51,571 bases of DNA from an uncultured Spirochaetia bacterium (lineage in GTDB: Bacteria; Spirochaetota; Brachyspiria; Brachyspirales; Brachyspiraceae). The DNA lies in NCBI GenBank assembly GCA_947038115.1, contig CAMQVF010000006.1:1-51571 (forward strand), in the 5' to 3' direction. A program made the position numbers and the translations under genes. Shown piece by piece: positions 2,137 through 39,630 of this stretch. Positions within the stretch are counted from its first letter, which is position 1. Each line of letters begins with the position of its first letter. The notes under the pieces were generated by a model that had not been told where the DNA came from, made no database searches, and was given only the letters and a program-made list of their open reading frames with translations.

Positions 2137-5001
2137 TTACCAAGAAATTACAAACTCTGTGTAAGCACTGCCGTCTTCTATTGAAACTGTTTTTTTTATG
2201 CTTGAATATTTTCTTCTAAACTTACAAATATCTAATATATATGCTTCAATATACTTTTCCATTAAATAATTATGCCCTATAAAATAAGACATATGTATAA
2301 CAAATTTTTTGCTATCCCGTCTTACTACATCAATTTTCATATTAGGAAATGATTTCGAAATAATATTACAAATATAATATATAAAATTATTCAAAGAACT
2401 TAATCTCATAATGATTTTTTTTGATCTGCTAATATTATTAAAGTCATATAAAGACTTTGCTTTTACGCCATCATCGATATTATTATCATAAAACATATTA
2501 ACCATAGCTAAAAGAGGTGCTAAGTAATCTTTATCTAGGTTGTAATTTTTTTTAGCTGATATCGACTTAGGTTTTTCATATAAACTTGCATTCGCTTTAT
2601 CAAGACTTGAAACAAATTCAGAATATTTTTCTTTACCAAATCGAATGCTTATAAAATTGATAAGCTCTTTTATCTGATAGCCTTTAACAAAAGTTTTATT
2701 CATAGTGGATTCTAATTTAGATTTTTTATCTTCTATAGTCATTATGTCATCAAACTTATACTTATGTATCTCATTTTCTAAATCTGATAATGACCCAATC
2801 ATTTGGCTATAATACTTTTCGACTTCCAAACTTAAGTCATTAAATTTAGAACTAGACTCTAAAATAATTTCAGAACTTTTCGCCATATCTTTTGAACTTT
2901 CATCAATAGAACTTGAAACACCAACTATCGATTCTAAAGGTTCAGTAAGCATTAAAACTTCATTTCCAAAATCGCCAATCTTATCATATAAACGGGCATA
3001 AGTTTCTTTTACAGAACTGAATATATCACTTACATCTTGACTTGAATTATTTAAACTAAAAATATCGAGTGAATTTGAATCTAATAAAGCTTTCAAATTA
3101 ACAATATTTTCACTAAGCGAAGTTACTTGGGTTTCTCCATTCGCAAATACATTGCCAGCATGTTTTACATCTTGAATAAGTGCATTAATACCAGCCTCAA
3201 AATCTTTTAATCTTTTCCAAATTTTATCAAGCTCAACTGCAGAATTATTAGATAATTTGCGTATTTCTTCTGCAACAACCGAAAATCCTTTACCAATATC
3301 TCCAGCATGTGCCGCCTCAATTGCTGCATTCATAGCAAGCATATTAGTATTTTGTATACCTTCACTTGTAAAAGTAAAATAATTATTCAAGTCTTTTACT
3401 ATGTCTCCAATAACTAATAGTGTAGTTTTAGATAGTTCTACAGTCTCTTTAGCAGAAGTTATAACTTGACCAACTAGATTAGAATATTCACTAGCTTCAC
3501 TTAAATTCGATACGAAATCGTGAATATTAGAAGATAGATTTTTTGTTGACATCTCAACTTTAGCAACTGTAACATTTATATGATCCATTTCATTCTTTAC
3601 TTCATCTTTTAAGCCACTTATTGCGACAAACCCTGATGACGACCTTGACAAACTAGTGCTAACATTAGAAATAATGTCTCTAATATTATCTATATTGCTT
3701 TGAGTAGATATTATATTATTAGCTACAAAAGAATACTCAATAGAGGCATTAGATACCGAACTCGAAAAATCTTTTATAACTTGATCTAAAGAATCGGTGT
3801 CTTTTTTAGTAATTTCTAATTTATTCGCTGTCGATGAAAATAATGTGTTAAGATTATAAGTAAGTATCGAGGTCCATTTAGTCATTTCTGATATAATATC
3901 TTTAGTATTAAAAGTTTTAAGATTAAACCGAAGGTCTTTATCACGTACCGATTGTTCAAAAGCATTAGTTATAGAATCTAACGGCTTTAATGAAACATGC
4001 ATTATAATATTTACAAATATAATTAATAATATTACAACTAAAACAGTAACTAACAAAAATAAAATAAAATAATTATTCAAATTAGATGAATAAAAACTTA
4101 TAGGAGTATAAACAATAAGATAATAGTTATTAACACCCAAGTATTTTATACTTACATTATGTTTTACATCATTTATAAAAACATCCTCAAATGAAAATTT
4201 TCTAATATCACTAAATCCATAAATTACCTCATCTATCCATCCAAGCGAAGATGTATCTCTTAAAAGATAATTTTTATCCTCATGAAACAAAATCTGTGAA
4301 CTATCAACATCAACTATAGTAGATTTAATACTCTCATTACTATATTGACTAACTATAATAGAATGCAATTTATCAATAGATATGTCTGTAGTGCTAACAG
4401 CTAAAATCTCATCATTATTATAAATAGGTGCTGATACAGTTATAACTTCAAAAGTCTTACCGTCTATAGTTTTAGAATATGGTGCTGAGTAATGTACTTT
4501 TCCAACCATAGGTAATATGTTATTATCCTCATTAGGAATAACTTCTAAAAAAAATTGCTCTGATGAATAATCCGATTCATATACATAAGAAAATGTATTA
4601 TTATTTTCATACATATAAACAGATAAAGCATCTTTAGGTTCAATATTCAAATAATAAGGATTAAAATAAATACCCGCACCAGAAGCATAAGTATATAAAT
4701 CTTGAGTTTGATAAAATTTCGATATCGAATTTGTAAAAACAGAATGCAATTCTAAATTATCAGTTCTAGAAATTCTATAAGAAAGTGCATTAATTTCAGC
4801 TAATGATAAACTTGAATTTTGAGCATCTAATAATATATCATCCAGTAATGACGAAATATTATCTATATAAGAATTTACAATTAGATTTGACTCAGAATTG
4901 GTATTTTTCATATCGTAAAATATATTTATCACAAAAATTATAGATAGTGATAAAACTGTTATGAGCAAAACTGCGTAAAGTATTTTGTTTTTAATTTTCA
5001 T
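2137..5001 (-). CDS. Methyl-accepting chemotaxis-type receptor with an extra C-terminal domain
   Basis: A 954-aa membrane receptor. The order is: TM1 (about residues 7-27), an extracytoplasmic double-Cache-like sensor (about 30-305, with [19 protein letters not shown] and [20 protein letters not shown]), TM2 (about 310-335), a HAMP-like stretch ([14 protein letters not shown]), then long coiled coil. The MCP signalling tip lies near residues 545-590 ([20 protein letters not shown] followed by [14 protein letters not shown]). From about residue 769 to the end there is a separate globular domain beginning [20 protein letters not shown] and ending TEFVISW. This outline recalls DUF2378/V4R/HNOB-like ligand-binding domains. 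The MCP assignment is firm; the identity of the tail is a guess. The ligand is unknown. Confidence 0.88.
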
Positions 5002-5100
5002 TCAATAACCCTAGTTGACATACATGATACTATATAATCAATATAAAAAAAAGAGACGTTTCTAAATTTATTAGATTTTTTATTTTAAATAGACTTATAT

Positions 5101-6702
5101 CTAAACTTTAGGTTTTATTTTAGATATAAATATATCAAATAAAGAAGAAAAATCTTTATTTTTTAATATTATATTCGCCATAGCATAAATAAAAATCGAC
5201 GAGAATATAATTATAATTATTTTTAATATTAAATCTAATTTTGCAATACTTAAAAATTCAAAATTAAATAAGTACTTTTTTATAATCAAAACAAAAATAC
5301 ACATTATAAAACTAGAAAAAATCGTTTTAATTAATTCTAATTTTTTATCTAAAATTGAATGAGTCTTCATCTTCTTTTTTAATATAAAAAATAATATAAA
5401 AAATGAAAAAATATTCGCAACCACACTTGATATAGCAATACCTTTTATATCAAACTTAAAATAATAAACACATAAAATATTAAAAATAAGATTTATAAAA
5501 AAAGCAAATAAAGCCACATAAACAGGTGTTTTCATATCTTTCATCGCATAAAATGACTGAACAATTATTCTATACCCAGCGACAAAAAATAGTGAAATGG
5601 ATAAATAAAATAATGCATTATAAACCAAATTACTAGACTCACTTGAAAACTTTCCATACTCGAAAAGCATCGATATAATTTCACGTCCCAAAATCATAAG
5701 CCCAAGCGAAGCAGGAATTGTAATTAAAGCAATAAGCCTAATCGAATAGCTTAAAGATTTTTTAGCCTCTTCAATATTATTTTCAGCAATTAATCGGCTT
5801 AGCGTAGGTAGCATTACAGTCGATATACTAACAGCAAAAATTCCTAATGTGAATTCATTAAGCCTAGTCGCAAATGTTAAGGCAGCAACTCGCCCTTCCC
5901 CAATTGAACCCGCAAATGCAGTAGAGACCAATAAATTAATTTGATAAATACTTGCCCCAAAAATACCCGGGATAAATAAATAAATCATCTTTCTAACATA
6001 TTTACTTTTAAAATTGAGAAGTGGTTTAAATGAAAATCCAAGCCTAGCGACAAATGGTATCTGATAAATAAATTGCACAAAACCACCAAGTAAAACAGCA
6101 AAAGCAAATACATAGGCAATGCTATCAAAAGTGTTTTTAAAGAAAAAGTAAAAAATTAATGACACTGATATTATAACAATATTAAAAAGAATTGGACTTG
6201 CAGCTGAAATTGAATATGAATTGTGAACATTCAAAATACCTTGCATGAGTGCTGCTAACGAGATAAAAAATAAATATGGAAACATTATTCTCGATAAATT
6301 GGTGGCTAAATTTACAGCCTCAATATTATTATCAGCCGAGGTATATAAAAGCCTCACCAAAAAAGGAGAAACTATAATTCCTATTAAAACAATAAAAATC
6401 ATAACTAAAAATAAAATACTAAAAACACTTCTAAAAAAAAGTTTAGCTTCTTCCTCGCCATCTTCTTTTTTTACTTCTATAAAAACTGGTATAAAACTTA
6501 CAACCATATTACCTTCCGCAAATAGCCTTCGAAGGAGATTTGGCAAAATAAAACCTATGGCAAAAGCATCAGCCACAAAACTTGTACCCAATAAAAATGC
6601 TTGTATTTGATCACGAAAAAGACCTAGAAACCTGCTGATAGTCGTTACTAATGACATTTTAAGCGATGACTTAAGAATTTTTTTATTCTCATTTCCACTC
6701 AT
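5101..6702 (-). CDS. murJ: Lipid II flippase MurJ
   Basis: A 533-aa polytopic membrane protein with about 14 hydrophobic segments. The MurJ/MviN hallmark is near the N-terminus: SRFLGLFRDQIQAFLLGTS followed by ADAFAIGFILPNLLRRLFAEG. It flips lipid-linked peptidoglycan precursor across the inner membrane; the Arg-rich first segments carry the family's conserved cationic residues. ATG 6702 was chosen over the GTG at 6720, because the GTG codon overlaps the GGAGAG ribosome-binding site. The start is four bases after the mnmG stop codon, so the two genes form a tight operon and are probably translationally coupled. Length and composition are normal for the family. Confidence 0.95.
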   Translation of the reverse strand: MSGNENKKILKSSLKMSLVTTISRFLGLFRDQIQAFLLGTSFVADAFAIGFILPNLLRRLFAEGNMVVSFIPVFIEVKKEDGEEEAKLFFRSVFSILFLVMIFIVLIGIIVSPFLVRLLYTSADNNIEAVNLATNLSRIMFPYLFFISLAALMQGILNVHNSYSISAASPILFNIVIISVSLIFYFFFKNTFDSIAYVFAFAVLLGGFVQFIYQIPFVARLGFSFKPLLNFKSKYVRKMIYLFIPGIFGASIYQINLLVSTAFAGSIGEGRVAALTFATRLNEFTLGIFAVSISTVMLPTLSRLIAENNIEEAKKSLSYSIRLIALITIPASLGLMILGREIISMLFEYGKFSSESSNLVYNALFYLSISLFFVAGYRIIVQSFYAMKDMKTPVYVALFAFFINLIFNILCVYYFKFDIKGIAISSVVANIFSFFILFFILKKKMKTHSILDKKLELIKTIFSSFIMCIFVLIIKKYLFNFEFLSIAKLDLILKIIIIIFSSIFIYAMANIILKNKDFSSLFDIFISKIKPKV

Positions 6703-33826: not shown

Positions 33827-33860
33827 AGTCAAGCCTTAAAATTCATCATTGAACAAAATC

Positions 33861-33933
33861 AGGTCAGACAGGAATCGAACCTGCAACACCCAGTTTTGGA
33901 GACTGGTGCTCTACCAAATTGAACTACTGACCT
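33861..33933 (-). tRNA. trnW: tRNA-Trp (anticodon CCA)
   Basis: The 73-base minus-strand sequence folds as a full cloverleaf. The acceptor is AGGTCAG/CTGACCT and the D arm GTTC/GAGC. The anticodon arm is CCAGT-CTCCAAA-ACTGG with CCA at the anticodon position. The T arm is GCAGG-TTCGATT-CCTGT. The 3' CCA is not encoded. It lies between rpmG and secE, as in many bacteria. Confidence 0.97.
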
Positions 33934-33942
33934 AAGTAAAAT

Positions 33943-34119
33943 TTATCTAGAAACTTTAATCTCTTTATGAAGAGTATGCTTTCTATCAAATCTACAATAC
34001 TTCATAAGATCTAGTTTTTCTTGAACATTTTGCTTGTTTTTAGTTGTTATGTAATTCTTACGTTTACACTCTGTACACTGCAAGTTTATTTGTTCTGTTT
34101 TAATTTTCGCACTAGCCAT
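33943..34119 (-). CDS. rpmG: 50S ribosomal protein L33
   Basis: A 58-aa protein: [28 protein letters not shown], and [16 protein letters not shown]. It carries a first CxxC pair, but the second pair reads C-x-x-D, so only three of the four usual zinc-ribbon cysteines remain. The start is ATG 34119 behind AAGGAGTG; the longer frame upstream reads through the promoter region and is not credible. It is the first gene of the cluster that continues through trnW and secE to rpoC. Confidence 0.95.
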
Positions 34120-34173
34120 TAGAATTTCACTCCTTAAGGGATTTTTATATACCTCGAAAATATACGGTATACT

Positions 34174-34202
34174 ATGATACACATAAAAAACTATTATGTC
34201 AA
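34174..34202 (-). promoter_or_regulatory. Promoter of the rpmG-trnW-secE-nusG-rpl-rpoBC cluster
   Basis: Minus-strand TTGACA (34202-34197), 17-base spacer and TATCAT (34179-34174), about 55 bases before the rpmG ATG. The -35 is consensus and the spacing is ideal. Confidence 0.75.
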
Positions 34203-34302
34203 GTCTTTTAAAATAATATTTAATAACTTTGAAATAAAAAATAAAATTCTAGACAAATTTTATCATGCATGAAAAATGCTACTTAAAAAGTATAACTTAA
34301 AT

Positions 34303-34330
34303 TTGACAAATAACATAAAATGACTATACT
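34303..34330 (+). promoter_or_regulatory. Promoter of the grdX-grdE-grdB operon
   Basis: Plus-strand TTGACA (34303-34308), 16-base spacer and TATACT (34325-34330), 41 bases before the grdX start. The leader is too short to hold a glycine riboswitch. The rest of the 252-base gap to rpmG holds the divergent rpmG promoter and AT-rich sequence. Confidence 0.75.
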
Positions 34331-34371
34331 TTAATTTTTGTAGCATTCAATATATTTTGAAGGAGTGGACT

Positions 34372-34776
34372 TTGTACAGGCGTGCCTTAATATTAATTAC
34401 AACAAACAATGAAAAAGTTTCCAATAAATTCGGTAATGACTACTCGATTGACTTCATTGAAAGTGAAGATATGATGCAAGTCTTAACGAAATCAAGAGAC
34501 TATATACACTCTGGCTACAAATTACTCACACACCCATCTAGTGGAAGTCTTAAACCTAATCAAACACCATATAAATCTATAATTCTATATAAGACAGAAG
34601 AATCTATTGATTTTGAAAACTTAAATCTAATAGAAAACAGTATAGAAATATTTAAAAAATTTAATAAAGATGCTCAAATTGGAACCTTGACTGAAAAAAT
34701 AAAAAATGATTTCCAAACGGTAGATTTGTCATTAATAGAAGGATGTTTGAATAAATATATACCTATCTATTTATAG
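34372..34776 (+). CDS. grdX: GrdX family protein
   Basis: A 134-aa protein of unknown biochemical function that recurs at the head of glycine/sarcosine/betaine reductase operons. The start YRRALILITTNNEKVSNKFG and the segment VLTKSRDYIHSGYKLLTHPS, followed by GSLKPNQTPYKSIIL, fit the family as I remember it. The likely start is TTG 34372 with AAGGAG eight bases upstream; an alternative TTG at 34357 overlaps that ribosome-binding site. It is first in the operon and is followed by the transporter gene after 28 bases. The call rests partly on context. Confidence 0.8.
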   Translation: MYRRALILITTNNEKVSNKFGNDYSIDFIESEDMMQVLTKSRDYIHSGYKLLTHPSSGSLKPNQTPYKSIILYKTEESIDFENLNLIENSIEIFKKFNKDAQIGTLTEKIKNDFQTVDLSLIEGCLNKYIPIYL

Positions 34777-34804: not shown

Positions 34805-35899
34805 ATGAATAAGGAAAAAATATCCGTTTCAACTGTTATAATATATGCAGGGGCATTTATGGCATTTTTAATCGGTTCTGGATTTGCTACAGGACAAGAA
34901 GTATTGCAGTATTTTACATCTTATGGATTTTGGGGAATAGCTGGAACATTTACAGTGTTTGCATTATTTGTATATGTATCAACTAGTTTTATTATGGTTG
35001 GCTACAATAAAAAATTTGAAAAACCAAATGATATTTACAAATATTATTGTGGAAAATATATCGGCACATTTTTCGACTACTTCTCTACACTATTCATTTA
35101 TATGTCTTATATAGTTATGGTTGCAGGAGCTGCTGCGACTATAAATCAGCAATATGGAATTCCCTCAATATTTGGTGGAATACTGCTAGTTGTTTTATCT
35201 ATAACTACTGTAGCTTTTGGACTTGGAAAAATAGTTAATGTCTTGGGTAGAATAGGACCTGTAGTAGTTGTGCTTTCAATAGTTCTTGGACTATACGGAA
35301 TATTTAGTAATATTGGTGGGCTAAAAGAAGGACATGAAATTGTTCCTACACTACCAGTACTCAGAGCTTCGACAAATTGGTTTTTAGCTGCCGCTTCATA
35401 CACAGGGTTTTGTATGCTTTGGCTTGCAGCTTTCATATCGGCAATTGGTTCTAAAACAAAAAATATAAAAGATGGTGTTTTGGGAATGGTATTTGGAGTT
35501 GTCGGATTTTGTGTAGCTGTTTTAATAGTATCTTTAGGGCTATTAGCTCATATCGAAGCTGTAGCAACTTCACAAGTACCTTCACTTTATATAGCAGGTC
35601 TTGTGCATCCAACTTTTGCATTTGTATTTTCTGTCATAGTTATAGCTGGTATTTATACAACAGCAGTGCCATTGCTTTGGACAGTTTCTAGCAGAATAAT
35701 AAATAATGACAAAAGCAAAAACTTTATTATTGTTACAATAGTAATTGGTGTTATTGGCGGTATAATTGGGCTGAAAGTTCCATTTAATAAACTTGTAAAT
35801 GTTGTGTATGTAATAAATGGATATGTTGGGTTTTTACTTTTGTTTTTAATGATTTTTAAAAGTATTACAACTATAATAAAAAAGAAAAATCATAACTAA
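34805..35899 (+). CDS. YkvI-like membrane transporter of the glycine reductase operon
   Basis: A 364-aa polytopic protein with about ten membrane segments. The start VIIYAGAFMAFLIGSGFATG, followed by QEVLQYFTSYGFWGI, matches the YkvI family (LeuT-like amino acid/cation symporter superfamily). Other segments include YMSYIVMVAGAAATINQQYG and a hydrophobic C-terminus ending KKKNHN. A GTGAGGAG ribosome-binding site precedes the ATG. Its place between grdX and grdE suggests that it imports the reductase substrate (glycine, sarcosine or betaine), in place of the BCCT-type transporter seen in some grd operons. The substrate is an inference from context only. Confidence 0.8.
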   Translation: MNKEKISVSTVIIYAGAFMAFLIGSGFATGQEVLQYFTSYGFWGIAGTFTVFALFVYVSTSFIMVGYNKKFEKPNDIYKYYCGKYIGTFFDYFSTLFIYMSYIVMVAGAAATINQQYGIPSIFGGILLVVLSITTVAFGLGKIVNVLGRIGPVVVVLSIVLGLYGIFSNIGGLKEGHEIVPTLPVLRASTNWFLAAASYTGFCMLWLAAFISAIGSKTKNIKDGVLGMVFGVVGFCVAVLIVSLGLLAHIEAVATSQVPSLYIAGLVHPTFAFVFSVIVIAGIYTTAVPLLWTVSSRIINNDKSKNFIIVTIVIGVIGGIIGLKVPFNKLVNVVYVINGYVGFLLLFLMIFKSITTIIKKKNHN

Positions 35900-35976
35900 A
35901 AATTGAATATAAAACACTTTAAGTTAAAACTTTTAGATTTATATAAATACAAAATTAATACAGTTTGGAGGCATTA

Positions 35977-37263
35977 ATGAAATTAGAACTTGGTAAGATT
36001 TTTATTAAGGATGTTCAGTTTGCTGATAAAACGAAAGTGGAAAAAAATGTTCTATATGTATGTGCTAAAGATATAGAAAAATTAGTTCTACAAGACGAAA
36101 GGCTTATATCAGCTAAAGTTGAACTAGCAAGGCCCGGAGAGTCTGTTAGAATAGCACCTGTAAAAGATGTTATCGAACCACGTGTTAAAGTAAGTGGTAG
36201 CGGTGGCATTTTCCCGGGTATTATAAACAAGGTAAAAGAAGTTGGTAGTGGACGCACTCATGCTTTGGTTGGCTCATGCGTAATTACTTGCGGTAAGATT
36301 GTTGGCTTTCAAGAAGGCATAATTGATATGTCAGGCGAGACTGCTAAATATACACCGTTTTCTCAAACAAATAATGTTTGTATAGTAATTGAACCTAAAG
36401 AAGGCATAACTACTCATAACTATGAAGAAGCTGGTAGACTTGCTGGTCTTCAAGTAGCTAATTTTATAGGTGAAGCTGGCAGAAATGTTACACCTGATGA
36501 AATCGTTACTTATGAAACTAAGCCATTGCTTGAGCAAGTAAATCAATATCCTAATTTGCCAAAAGTTGGATATGTTCACATGTTGCAGTCTCAAGGTCTT
36601 TTGCATGACACTTATTATTATGGTGTTGATGCAAAACAGTTTGTTCCTACTTTTATGTATCCAACTGAAATTATGGACGGTGCAATAGTTAGTGGAAACT
36701 GTGTAGCTCCTTGCGATAAAGTTACAACATATCACCATTTTCATAACCCTGTAATTGAAGACTTGTATCAAAGACATGGTAAAGATTTAAACTTCATCGG
36801 TGTAATTCTTACAAATGAAAATGTATTCTTGGCTGATAAAGAACGCTCATCTGACATGGTAGCAAAACTTGCTGAACATATGTGTCTTGATGGTGTTATT
36901 ATTACTGAAGAAGGATATGGCAATCCTGATACTGACTTAATGATGAACTGTAAAAAAGTATCAAACAAAGGAATTAAAGTTGTATTAATAACAGATGAAT
37001 TCCCTGGTAGAGATGGAAAATCTCAATCATTAGCTGATGCAGTTGTAGAGGCTGACACTTTAATATCATGTGGTAATGGTAATGTTATAGTAAACTTCCC
37101 ACCAATGGATAAAGTTATAGGAACACTTGACTATGTTGAAACTATGATTGGTGGTTATGATGGTAGTTTGAAATCTGACGGCAGTATCGAAGCGGAATTA
37201 CAAATAATAATTGCTTCTACTATAGCTAATGGATTCAACAAACTCACAGCTAGAACATACTAA
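35977..37263 (+). CDS. grdE: Glycine/sarcosine/betaine reductase component B proprotein GrdE
   Basis: A 428-aa proprotein of the substrate-activating component. Visible blocks are KLELGKIFIKDVQFADKTKV, GSGGIFPGIINKVKEVGSGR, GYVHMLQSQGLLHDTYYYG and IVSGNCVAPCDKVTTYHHFH. Cys242 in the Asn-Cys context is the expected self-cleavage point. Cleavage there gives two subunits, one starting with a pyruvoyl (or similar carbonyl) group that forms a Schiff base with the substrate amine. The C-terminal ASTIANGFNKLTARTY is also conserved. The start is ATG 35977 behind GGAGG; the TTG at 35965 includes that site. It is followed by grdB after 30 bases. Confidence 0.93.
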   Translation: MKLELGKIFIKDVQFADKTKVEKNVLYVCAKDIEKLVLQDERLISAKVELARPGESVRIAPVKDVIEPRVKVSGSGGIFPGIINKVKEVGSGRTHALVGSCVITCGKIVGFQEGIIDMSGETAKYTPFSQTNNVCIVIEPKEGITTHNYEEAGRLAGLQVANFIGEAGRNVTPDEIVTYETKPLLEQVNQYPNLPKVGYVHMLQSQGLLHDTYYYGVDAKQFVPTFMYPTEIMDGAIVSGNCVAPCDKVTTYHHFHNPVIEDLYQRHGKDLNFIGVILTNENVFLADKERSSDMVAKLAEHMCLDGVIITEEGYGNPDTDLMMNCKKVSNKGIKVVLITDEFPGRDGKSQSLADAVVEADTLISCGNGNVIVNFPPMDKVIGTLDYVETMIGGYDGSLKSDGSIEAELQIIIASTIANGFNKLTARTY

Positions 37264-37293: not shown

Positions 37294-38601
37294 ATGGCTA
37301 AAAAGAAAGTTATACATTATATAAACCAATTCTTTGCTGGAGTTGGTGGAGAAGAGAAGGCTGGAATAGAGCCTCAAATCAAAGAAGAAATTATAGGCCC
37401 TGGTCTAGGATTAGCTAAAGAATTTGGAAGCGACTATGAAATTGTTGCGACTATTTTCTGTGGCGATAATTTCTATGCTGAAAATCTTCAAGAAGCTGAA
37501 AATAGAATTTTAGAGATGGTTAAAAAATATAGCCCTGATTTGTTTATTGCTGGCCCTGCATTTGAAGCTGGTAGATATGGTGTTGCTTGTGGTGCTATTT
37601 GTAAAGCAGTCGAAGAGAAATTATCAATTCCTGCAATCACTGCTATGTACAAAGAGAACCCGGGTGTAGATATGTATCGTAAAGATTTACATATAATCGA
37701 AACTGGACATTCTGCTGCCGACATGAAAAACACACTTCCTAAAGTTGTTGCATTGGCTAAAAAAATGACTGAAGGAAAAGAAATTCTTTCTCCTAAAGAA
37801 GAAGGTTATTTTGAGCGTGGAATTAGGGTAAATTATTTTAATGAAGTTAGAGGTGCTACAAGAGCTGTTGATGCACTTGTTAAAAAAATTAAAGGTGATA
37901 AAGTTGAGACTGAATATCCAATGCCTACTTTTGATAGAGTCGCACCAGCTGCTGCTATAAAAGATATTAAATCGACTAGAATTGCAATTGTTACAAGTGG
38001 TGGAATTGTTCCTACTGGTAACCCTGACAAAGTTGAGAGTTCAAGTGCTACTAAATATGGTGTTTATAGCATTGATGGTATGAAAACAATGAACCCTAAA
38101 GATTTTATGACTGTTCATGGTGGATATGACAGAGCTTTTGTTACTGAAGATCCGAACCTTGTTATACCTCTTGATGTTATGAGAGAAATTGAATCAGAAG
38201 GTGGAATTGGTCAACTGGTTAATTATTTCATTTCAACAACAGGAACTGGAACTTCTACTGGAAATGCTAAACGTTTTGGTGAAGAATTCGTTCAAAAATT
38301 ATTGGCTGACGGTGTTCAAGCTGTAATACTTACATCTACCTGAGGCACTTGTACTCGTTGCGGTGCAACGATGGTCAAAGAAATTGAGCGTGTTGGTATT
38401 CCTGTAGTTCACATGGCGACAGTAGTTCCTATTTCACTAACGATTGGTGCGAATAGAATTATACCTGGTGTTGGTATTCCTTATCCTTTAGGAAATCCTC
38501 CTCTTGGTGAAGAAGCTAGTAAAAAAATTAGACGTAAAATGGTTGAAAAAGCTTTAGTAGCTTTACAAACTGAAATTACAGAACAAACTGTATTTGAATA
38601 A
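37294..38601 (+). CDS. grdB: Selenocysteine-containing glycine reductase component B, GrdB (UGA read through at codon 350)
   Basis: The frame has 436 codons including one in-frame TGA at 38341-38343. Both sides are clear GrdB: VIHYINQFFAGVGGEEKAGI at the start and ADGVQAVILTST before the TGA. After it come GTCTRCGATMVKEIERVG, PVVHMATVVPISLTIGANRI and a C-terminal EQTVFE. The TGA therefore encodes selenocysteine (ST-Sec-GTCTRCG), the residue that attacks the activated substrate carbon. A SECIS-like hairpin follows directly. An AAGGAG ribosome-binding site precedes the ATG. The paralogues GrdF (sarcosine) and GrdH (betaine) are alternatives; substrate cannot be fixed by eye. Confidence 0.95.
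38341..38370 (+). promoter_or_regulatory. UGA selenocysteine codon with SECIS-like hairpin
   Basis: Twelve bases after the TGA, a perfect 6-bp stem CGTTGC (38356-38361) and GCAACG (38365-38370) closes a GGT loop. Position and loop resemble the E. coli fdhF SECIS apical hairpin bound by SelB. The element is within the coding region, as is usual in bacteria. Confidence 0.8.
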
Positions 38602-38682: not shown

Positions 38683-39630
38683 TTAGCTCTTACCATATCT
38701 TAAAGTTTCCCTTTCTAAAGTCTCTTTAATCAACGGCTCAAGATGTGATGAATAAAACTCACGAGGGGTGTCTGAAATAAATGCACTTGAAAAATCATTT
38801 CTCACATTCAAATTATAAGTGTGAATTGCAGGCGTTAATGTTTCTTTTATAGACTCTGATGCCCCAAAATTAACTTCCGCTTTTATATCTGATTTAGATA
38901 TTTTATCCATCTCCAAAATTAAATCTCTTATTTTATCAACCGCATATTTTTGCTCATCTGTATAATTCATATATTCGGCAGAGCTAATATTTTTAACATC
39001 GCCAACATTATACATAGTTTCAAGCTTTTGAATTTGACCAGATAAAAAACTTATTTGCGAACCTGAACTATCAAAACCACCCTCGCCTAAGCTCGATAAA
39101 AATTTAAACTGCTCCATTTCAAAATTCATATATTCTTTACTTTGATCAAATGATTCTTTTAATTTTGCTTCTCTATAATTAGCCTCTTGCTCGATTAATT
39201 GAATTTCATATTTTGATACATCTTCACCAGCTTTTTTTCTCATTTCTATTTCTTGCATTAAGTTACTTATTTTGAGTTGATGTAAAGCCTCACTTGTCGC
39301 TCTCTCATCACTAGCCAAAGAATATTTAAGTTCAGACTCCATCAATGAATTTTCTTGTGCCATTTGATTTGCTTTCGATTTATAAGCGTCCATCTGGGCT
39401 TTACCTCTATTATCACTCAAATTAAAAAGTGAGTCTATAAAACCTGAAACCACATTGCCTACCACAGGAATTGAATCTGTAACACTGGTAATAACCGACT
39501 GCCACATGCCAACAGCATCATTTGATTTGCTGCCCATAGTATCAAAAGTAGATATTACGCTTGAAGAAATTGAAGAGAATGCTTGTGAAAAGTTGTCTTC
39601 CAAAGAAAGTTCTATACCGAGTTGTTCCAT
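38683..39630 (-). CDS. Unrecognised helical protein, faintly tape-measure-like
   Basis: A 315-aa protein with no signal peptide and a good AAGGAG ribosome-binding site. The N-terminus (LGIELSLEDNFSQAFSSISS) and a hydrophobic helix VVGNVVSGFIDSLFNLSD are followed by a long charged coiled-coil region (about residues 75-190). It ends with a globular part finishing PREFYSSHLEPLIKETLERE. The Ser-rich amphipathic start and coiled coil recall pieces of phage tail tape-measure proteins or a gene-transfer-agent component. No other phage gene is near, so this is only a resemblance. It lies downstream of the patatin gene on the same strand, 46 bases away. Confidence 0.6.
   Translation of the reverse strand: MEQLGIELSLEDNFSQAFSSISSSVISTFDTMGSKSNDAVGMWQSVITSVTDSIPVVGNVVSGFIDSLFNLSDNRGKAQMDAYKSKANQMAQENSLMESELKYSLASDERATSEALHQLKISNLMQEIEMRKKAGEDVSKYEIQLIEQEANYREAKLKESFDQSKEYMNFEMEQFKFLSSLGEGGFDSSGSQISFLSGQIQKLETMYNVGDVKNISSAEYMNYTDEQKYAVDKIRDLILEMDKISKSDIKAEVNFGASESIKETLTPAIHTYNLNVRNDFSSAFISDTPREFYSSHLEPLIKETLERETLRYGKS

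Follow-up and report, generated by a model that had tools for sequence, protein, structure and literature searches.

A predicted sarcosine reductase selenoprotein gene, grdF, and its cassette in an uncultured Brachyspiraceae spirochaete

The GrdF and GrdG proteins of Peptoclostridium (Eubacterium) acidaminophilum act biochemically on sarcosine. Sarcosine use and two sarcosine reductase clusters have been reported for this bacterium (PMC4056300), and in strain DCMF grown on glycine betaine a sarcosine cluster grdGF was seen by proteomics together with A and C components (PMC9768040). The UxxCxxC motif and the glycine reductase reaction scheme have been reviewed (PMC13188914). The glycine reductase cluster of Brachyspira pilosicoli and B. 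murdochii has been published, selenoprotein annotation included (PMC2897892), additional glycine reductase complex proteins have been reported for strain B2904 (PMC3532143), and novel thioredoxin-like selenoproteins have been reported in Brachyspira (PMC5330540). We found no measurements on any Brachyspiraceae GrdF in the literature searched.

Here we analyze a 51,571-nucleotide stretch of DNA (the window; contig 6, CAMQVF010000006.1, positions 1 to 51,571 of the forward strand) from assembly GCA_947038115.1 of an uncultured Spirochaetia bacterium. This 1.77-Mb Brachyspiraceae genome, 99% complete, falls in the same family as Brachyspira; its contents were searched family by family. The selenoprotein gene described below and its features are all of a well-known kind, and the mechanism holds nothing new. 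The correction concerns the substrate: automatic annotation would either cut this gene in two at its TGA or label it glycine reductase.

The selenocysteine codon and SECIS element

Positions 37294-38601 of the window form a single gene of 435 codons, in which an in-frame TGA is codon 350. Its features are as follows.

37294..38601, + strand: very probable grdF, encoding by read-through the component B selenoprotein of sarcosine reductase (435 aa, Sec350); best model NF040794, protein in a clade with P. acidaminophilum GrdF
38341..38343, + strand: TGA read as selenocysteine, the first residue of a U-x-x-C-x-x-C motif
38344..38381, + strand: bacterial SECIS element, Rfam SECIS_4 (RF01990), with stem 38356-38361 / 38365-38370, loop 38362-38364 and frozen stem codons

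On re-reading the sequence, the position and letters of the in-frame UGA given in the original prediction were correct, as was its observation that a simple ORF call splits the gene: the table-11 ORF stops at 38343 after 349 aa, and a second piece runs from 38371. Read through the TGA, the frame yields 435 residues (...LTST-U-GTCTRCGATMV..., with U at position 350), which confirms the continuous protein with ST-Sec-GTCTRCG that had been proposed. The TGA is followed by a 12-nt spacer, GGCACTTGTACT, at 38344-38355 and then by a hairpin at 38356-38370, where the strands CGTTGC (38356-38361) and GCAACG (38365-38370) make a perfect 6-bp stem around the loop GGT (38362-38364), just as the original prediction had described it. 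Bacterial SECIS elements have been defined by a hairpin directly downstream with a G in a small apical loop (PMC1088965), and the hairpin with its GGT loop agrees with this definition. The earlier suggestion of a minimal bacterial SECIS is borne out by Rfam SECIS_4, which matches 38344-38381 over its full length (model positions 1-38) with 64.9 bits (gathering 38, E 2.7e-14); no difference was found between this family and the grdF element.

The hairpin by itself is weak evidence, because such a hairpin lies 8-18 nt after 10/2009 TGA triplets in the window (~0.5%), in 3 cases at a distance of exactly 12 nt, and because the folding energy of the SECIS region gave no signal relative to shuffles (z 0.02). 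Perfect 6-bp/3-nt hairpins number 21 in the window. It is the SECIS_4 match, together with conservation of the TGA and freezing of the stem codons, that places the TGA and SECIS beyond chance. Genome collections yielded 110 homologous loci; the Sec position was readable in 109 of them, and the codon was TGA in 109/109. Because the stem hardly varies, constraint on it was tested by synonymous freezing instead of base-pair covariation, counted in 108 of the 109 scorable loci after exclusion of one duplicate locus. In these 108 loci the stem codons were Arg CGT (108/108), Cys TGC (107/108), Ala GCA (100/100) and Thr ACG (97/106); the loop glycine codon varied freely (GGT/GGG/GGC/GGA), and the codons around the stem used their full synonymous range. 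The frozen codons are minority choices in the AT-rich window (CGT 22% of Arg, TGC 21% of Cys, GCA 30% of Ala and ACG 5% of Thr), and the product of their window frequencies is 0.0007. This pattern indicates that the constraint on the stem codons acts on the RNA, as a SECIS would require.

The original prediction also held that SelA, SelB, SelC and SelD must be encoded elsewhere. We looked for an absence of all selenocysteine machinery and found all four components in the genome.

C2:37718-37805: tRNA-Sec, anticodon TCA, 62.1 bits
C39:6674-7984: SelA, 443.5 bits
C39, about 4800-6640: SelB, 279.4 bits (cut-off 242.25), with a C-terminal SelB-wing_3
C24:792-1694: SelD, 345.6 bits

The selB gene directly adjoins selA, and in known SelB proteins the C-terminal winged helix, SelB-wing_3, reads the SECIS. 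Standard ORF calling does split the gene, as would be expected if the TGA were a genuine stop, or had arisen by sequencing error or by mutation in a pseudogene, leaving GrdF truncated at 349 residues; however, the same TGA in every scorable locus, the presence of SECIS_4, the complete selenocysteine machinery and a C-terminus conserved through residue 435 make such a truncation extremely improbable. The claim of a selenoprotein is therefore upheld: judged by homology, the in-frame TGA of grdF is a selenocysteine codon, at which selenocysteine would be inserted in vivo. Scans for promoters and terminators gave nothing above chance level, and no solved structure for GrdF was detectable by sequence.

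Probable assignment to sarcosine reductase

The name GrdB, under which the gene was originally predicted, did not survive the comparison of protein families. The best NCBIfam model for the window protein (U read as C) is sarcosine GrdF, NF040794, with 794.7 bits, versus 645.1 bits on the glycine GrdB model TIGR01917. The GrdF score falls 5.3 bits short of its cut-off (800 bits), so that the formal call is not made, and the GrdB score lies above its own (602.2); automatic rules could therefore call this gene GrdB. The GrdF proteins of two close relatives pass NF040794 with 801.2 and 804.5 bits, and that of another relative scores 853.8. The partner encoded upstream is GrdG (NF040793, 858.5 bits, cut-off 780), whereas the GrdE of contig 1 reaches 681.1 bits on the same model. 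The window protein is 70.1% identical to P. acidaminophilum GrdF, versus 59.5% to the GrdB of its own genome. In a tree of 43 sequences it falls in a clade with the annotated P. acidaminophilum grdF (support 98/94), and a constraint that joins Brachyspiraceae GrdF to Brachyspiraceae GrdB lowers the log-likelihood by 119 units and is rejected (p-AU 0.00016). The true grdB sits on contig 1 within grdX-trxB-grdE-grdA-grdB-grdC-grdD.

A protein that passes the glycine selenoprotein B cut-off and just misses that of GrdF could also be another GrdB acting on glycine, or a protein B of broad specificity, but we consider this quite unlikely in view of the separate grdB with grdA and grdE, the score of the partner on the GrdG model, and the tree placement with its AU test. 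In our judgement, the clade and partner tests outweigh the 5.3-bit shortfall on an automatic cut-off, and the gene is very probably grdF, the substrate-binding selenoprotein of sarcosine reductase component B, with the substrate assigned from the family.

The cassette, its relatives and the other reductases

Three genes precede grdF in the window.

34357..34776, + strand: grdX-like gene, the second GrdX of the genome, exact start codon uncertain; NF038093, 137.1 bits (cut-off 40)
34805..35899, + strand: membrane permease that probably takes up sarcosine or a related amino acid, judged from cassette linkage
35977..37263, + strand: grdG, sarcosine reductase component B subunit alpha (proprotein)

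In the second grdX (window 34174-34776), the TTG at 34357 shares bases with an AAGGAG motif, and from 34357 to the conserved region no ATG, GTG or TTG is evident; grdX copies that are 53-57% identical precede the same cassette in relatives. For grdG, a GGAGG Shine-Dalgarno sequence stands before the ATG at 35977, and the TTG at 35965 is without one. The permease matched no Pfam or NCBIfam family, with no Pfam match even at E 5. Permeases 63-68% identical to it lie upstream of grdG in most grdF-bearing Brachyspiraceae, and others 42-50% identical lie downstream of grdF in Bacillota; such consistent linkage to grdG and grdF makes it a candidate sarcosine transporter. Downstream of grdF, an ORF of 315 aa (38683-39630) has no NCBIfam or Pfam match.

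GrdF proteins with 77-79% identity occur in 7/28 other genomes searched in the Brachyspira family and in 0/32 other spirochaete genomes searched, 2 of which have only a GrdB-type relative. The order grdX-permease-grdG-grdF is kept in 5/7 relatives; of the other two, one has no detected permease and one no detected grdX. Three Bacillota have the permease last, as grdX-grdG-grdF-permease. The additional glycine reductase proteins of strain B2904 may be a grdGF pair. The window's cassette adjoins tRNA-Trp and a secE-nusG-rplK cluster (window 33859-34300), a position not common to the copies of relatives. Near those copies we found no counterpart of the genes that flank the cassette in the window (secE, nusG and the downstream ORFs), and therefore the position of the cassette differs between genomes. 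In the 43-sequence tree, the Brachyspiraceae GrdF clade is nested inside a Bacillota clade. Because of the patchy occurrence, the differing positions and this nesting, a horizontal gain of the cassette from Bacillota is favoured, albeit not proven.

The contig 1 operon is followed by an alanine-dehydrogenase-like gene, and its grdA and grdB each carry an in-frame TGA. Components A and C, which a sarcosine reductase could share, are present there (grdA 225.4 bits, cut-off 130; grdC 765.1, cut-off 450; grdD 557.2, cut-off 350). Since contig 6 carries neither of these components for the sarcosine cassette, the cassette would have to share those of contig 1. We regard as evenly balanced the full scenario, in which a portable grdX-permease-grdG-grdF cassette was gained by some Brachyspiraceae gut spirochaetes, probably from Bacillota, depends on glycine reductase components A and C of its host, and has the unclassified permease as its sarcosine importer.

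Contig 19 (L151 8957-11607) encodes a betaine-type GrdH with its partner and SECIS_4; GrdH is the best model at 747.3 bits, which is below the cut-off of 775. This GrdH falls in a clade whose sister is grdH from plasmid pCR1A of Enterococcus gilvus (support 100/99), which suggests that it was gained separately. Contig 16 (L152 6902-7621 and 7931-9988) encodes D-proline reductase PrdB and PrdA, with proline-racemase-like and PrdC-like genes near them. The PrdB has an in-frame TGA (TAG-U-GTCHRS), and both proteins score over cut-off (selenocysteine PrdB 414.4 bits, PrdA 950.3 bits). One small spirochaete genome carries glycine-, sarcosine-, betaine- and D-proline-type selenocysteine reductases together, and these four types predict growth on the corresponding compounds and dependence on selenium.

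Proposed mechanism and comparison with known systems

The read-through frame, the SECIS, the selenocysteine genes, the family, the cassette and the shared grdA, grdC, grdD and trxB elsewhere in the genome are shown by sequence; for selenocysteine insertion in vivo, the substrate, the chemistry and the role of the transporter, we infer the following from the family. SelB with GTP and Sec-tRNA(Sec) would bind the SECIS hairpin that lies shortly after UGA 350, and selenocysteine would be inserted at this codon in place of termination. GrdF and processed GrdG would form protein B, which would bind sarcosine via a pyruvoyl/Schiff-base step and transfer the carboxymethyl group onto the Sec residue of the shared GrdA, with release of methylamine. 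GrdC and GrdD would then make acetyl phosphate, and hence ATP, with thioredoxin supplying the electrons. The pyruvoyl and carboxymethyl steps are known for this enzyme family.

The GrdB/GrdE operons of Brachyspira (PMC2897892) and of contig 1 share with the window GrdF the protein family, the selenocysteine site and the SECIS, but their GrdB is about 60% identical to it, forms a separate clade and belongs to a full operon with trxB, grdA, grdC and grdD. The betaine reductase protein GrdH likewise has the same family, selenocysteine site and SECIS_4, although it is 47-49% identical and lies in a separate clade with the contig 19 paralogue. In P. acidaminophilum (megaplasmid EAL2_808p), GrdF and GrdG are 70.1% and 78.7% identical to those of the window, the grdG-grdF order and the position of the TGA are shared, and the hairpin, CGTTGC-GGC-GCAACG, is called the same, the window's being CGTTGC-GGT-GCAACG. 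There, a BCCT transporter gene, an M24 peptidase-like (creatinase-like) gene and grdA follow, whereas in the spirochaete grdX and the unclassified permease precede the pair and grdA, grdC and grdD are on another contig.
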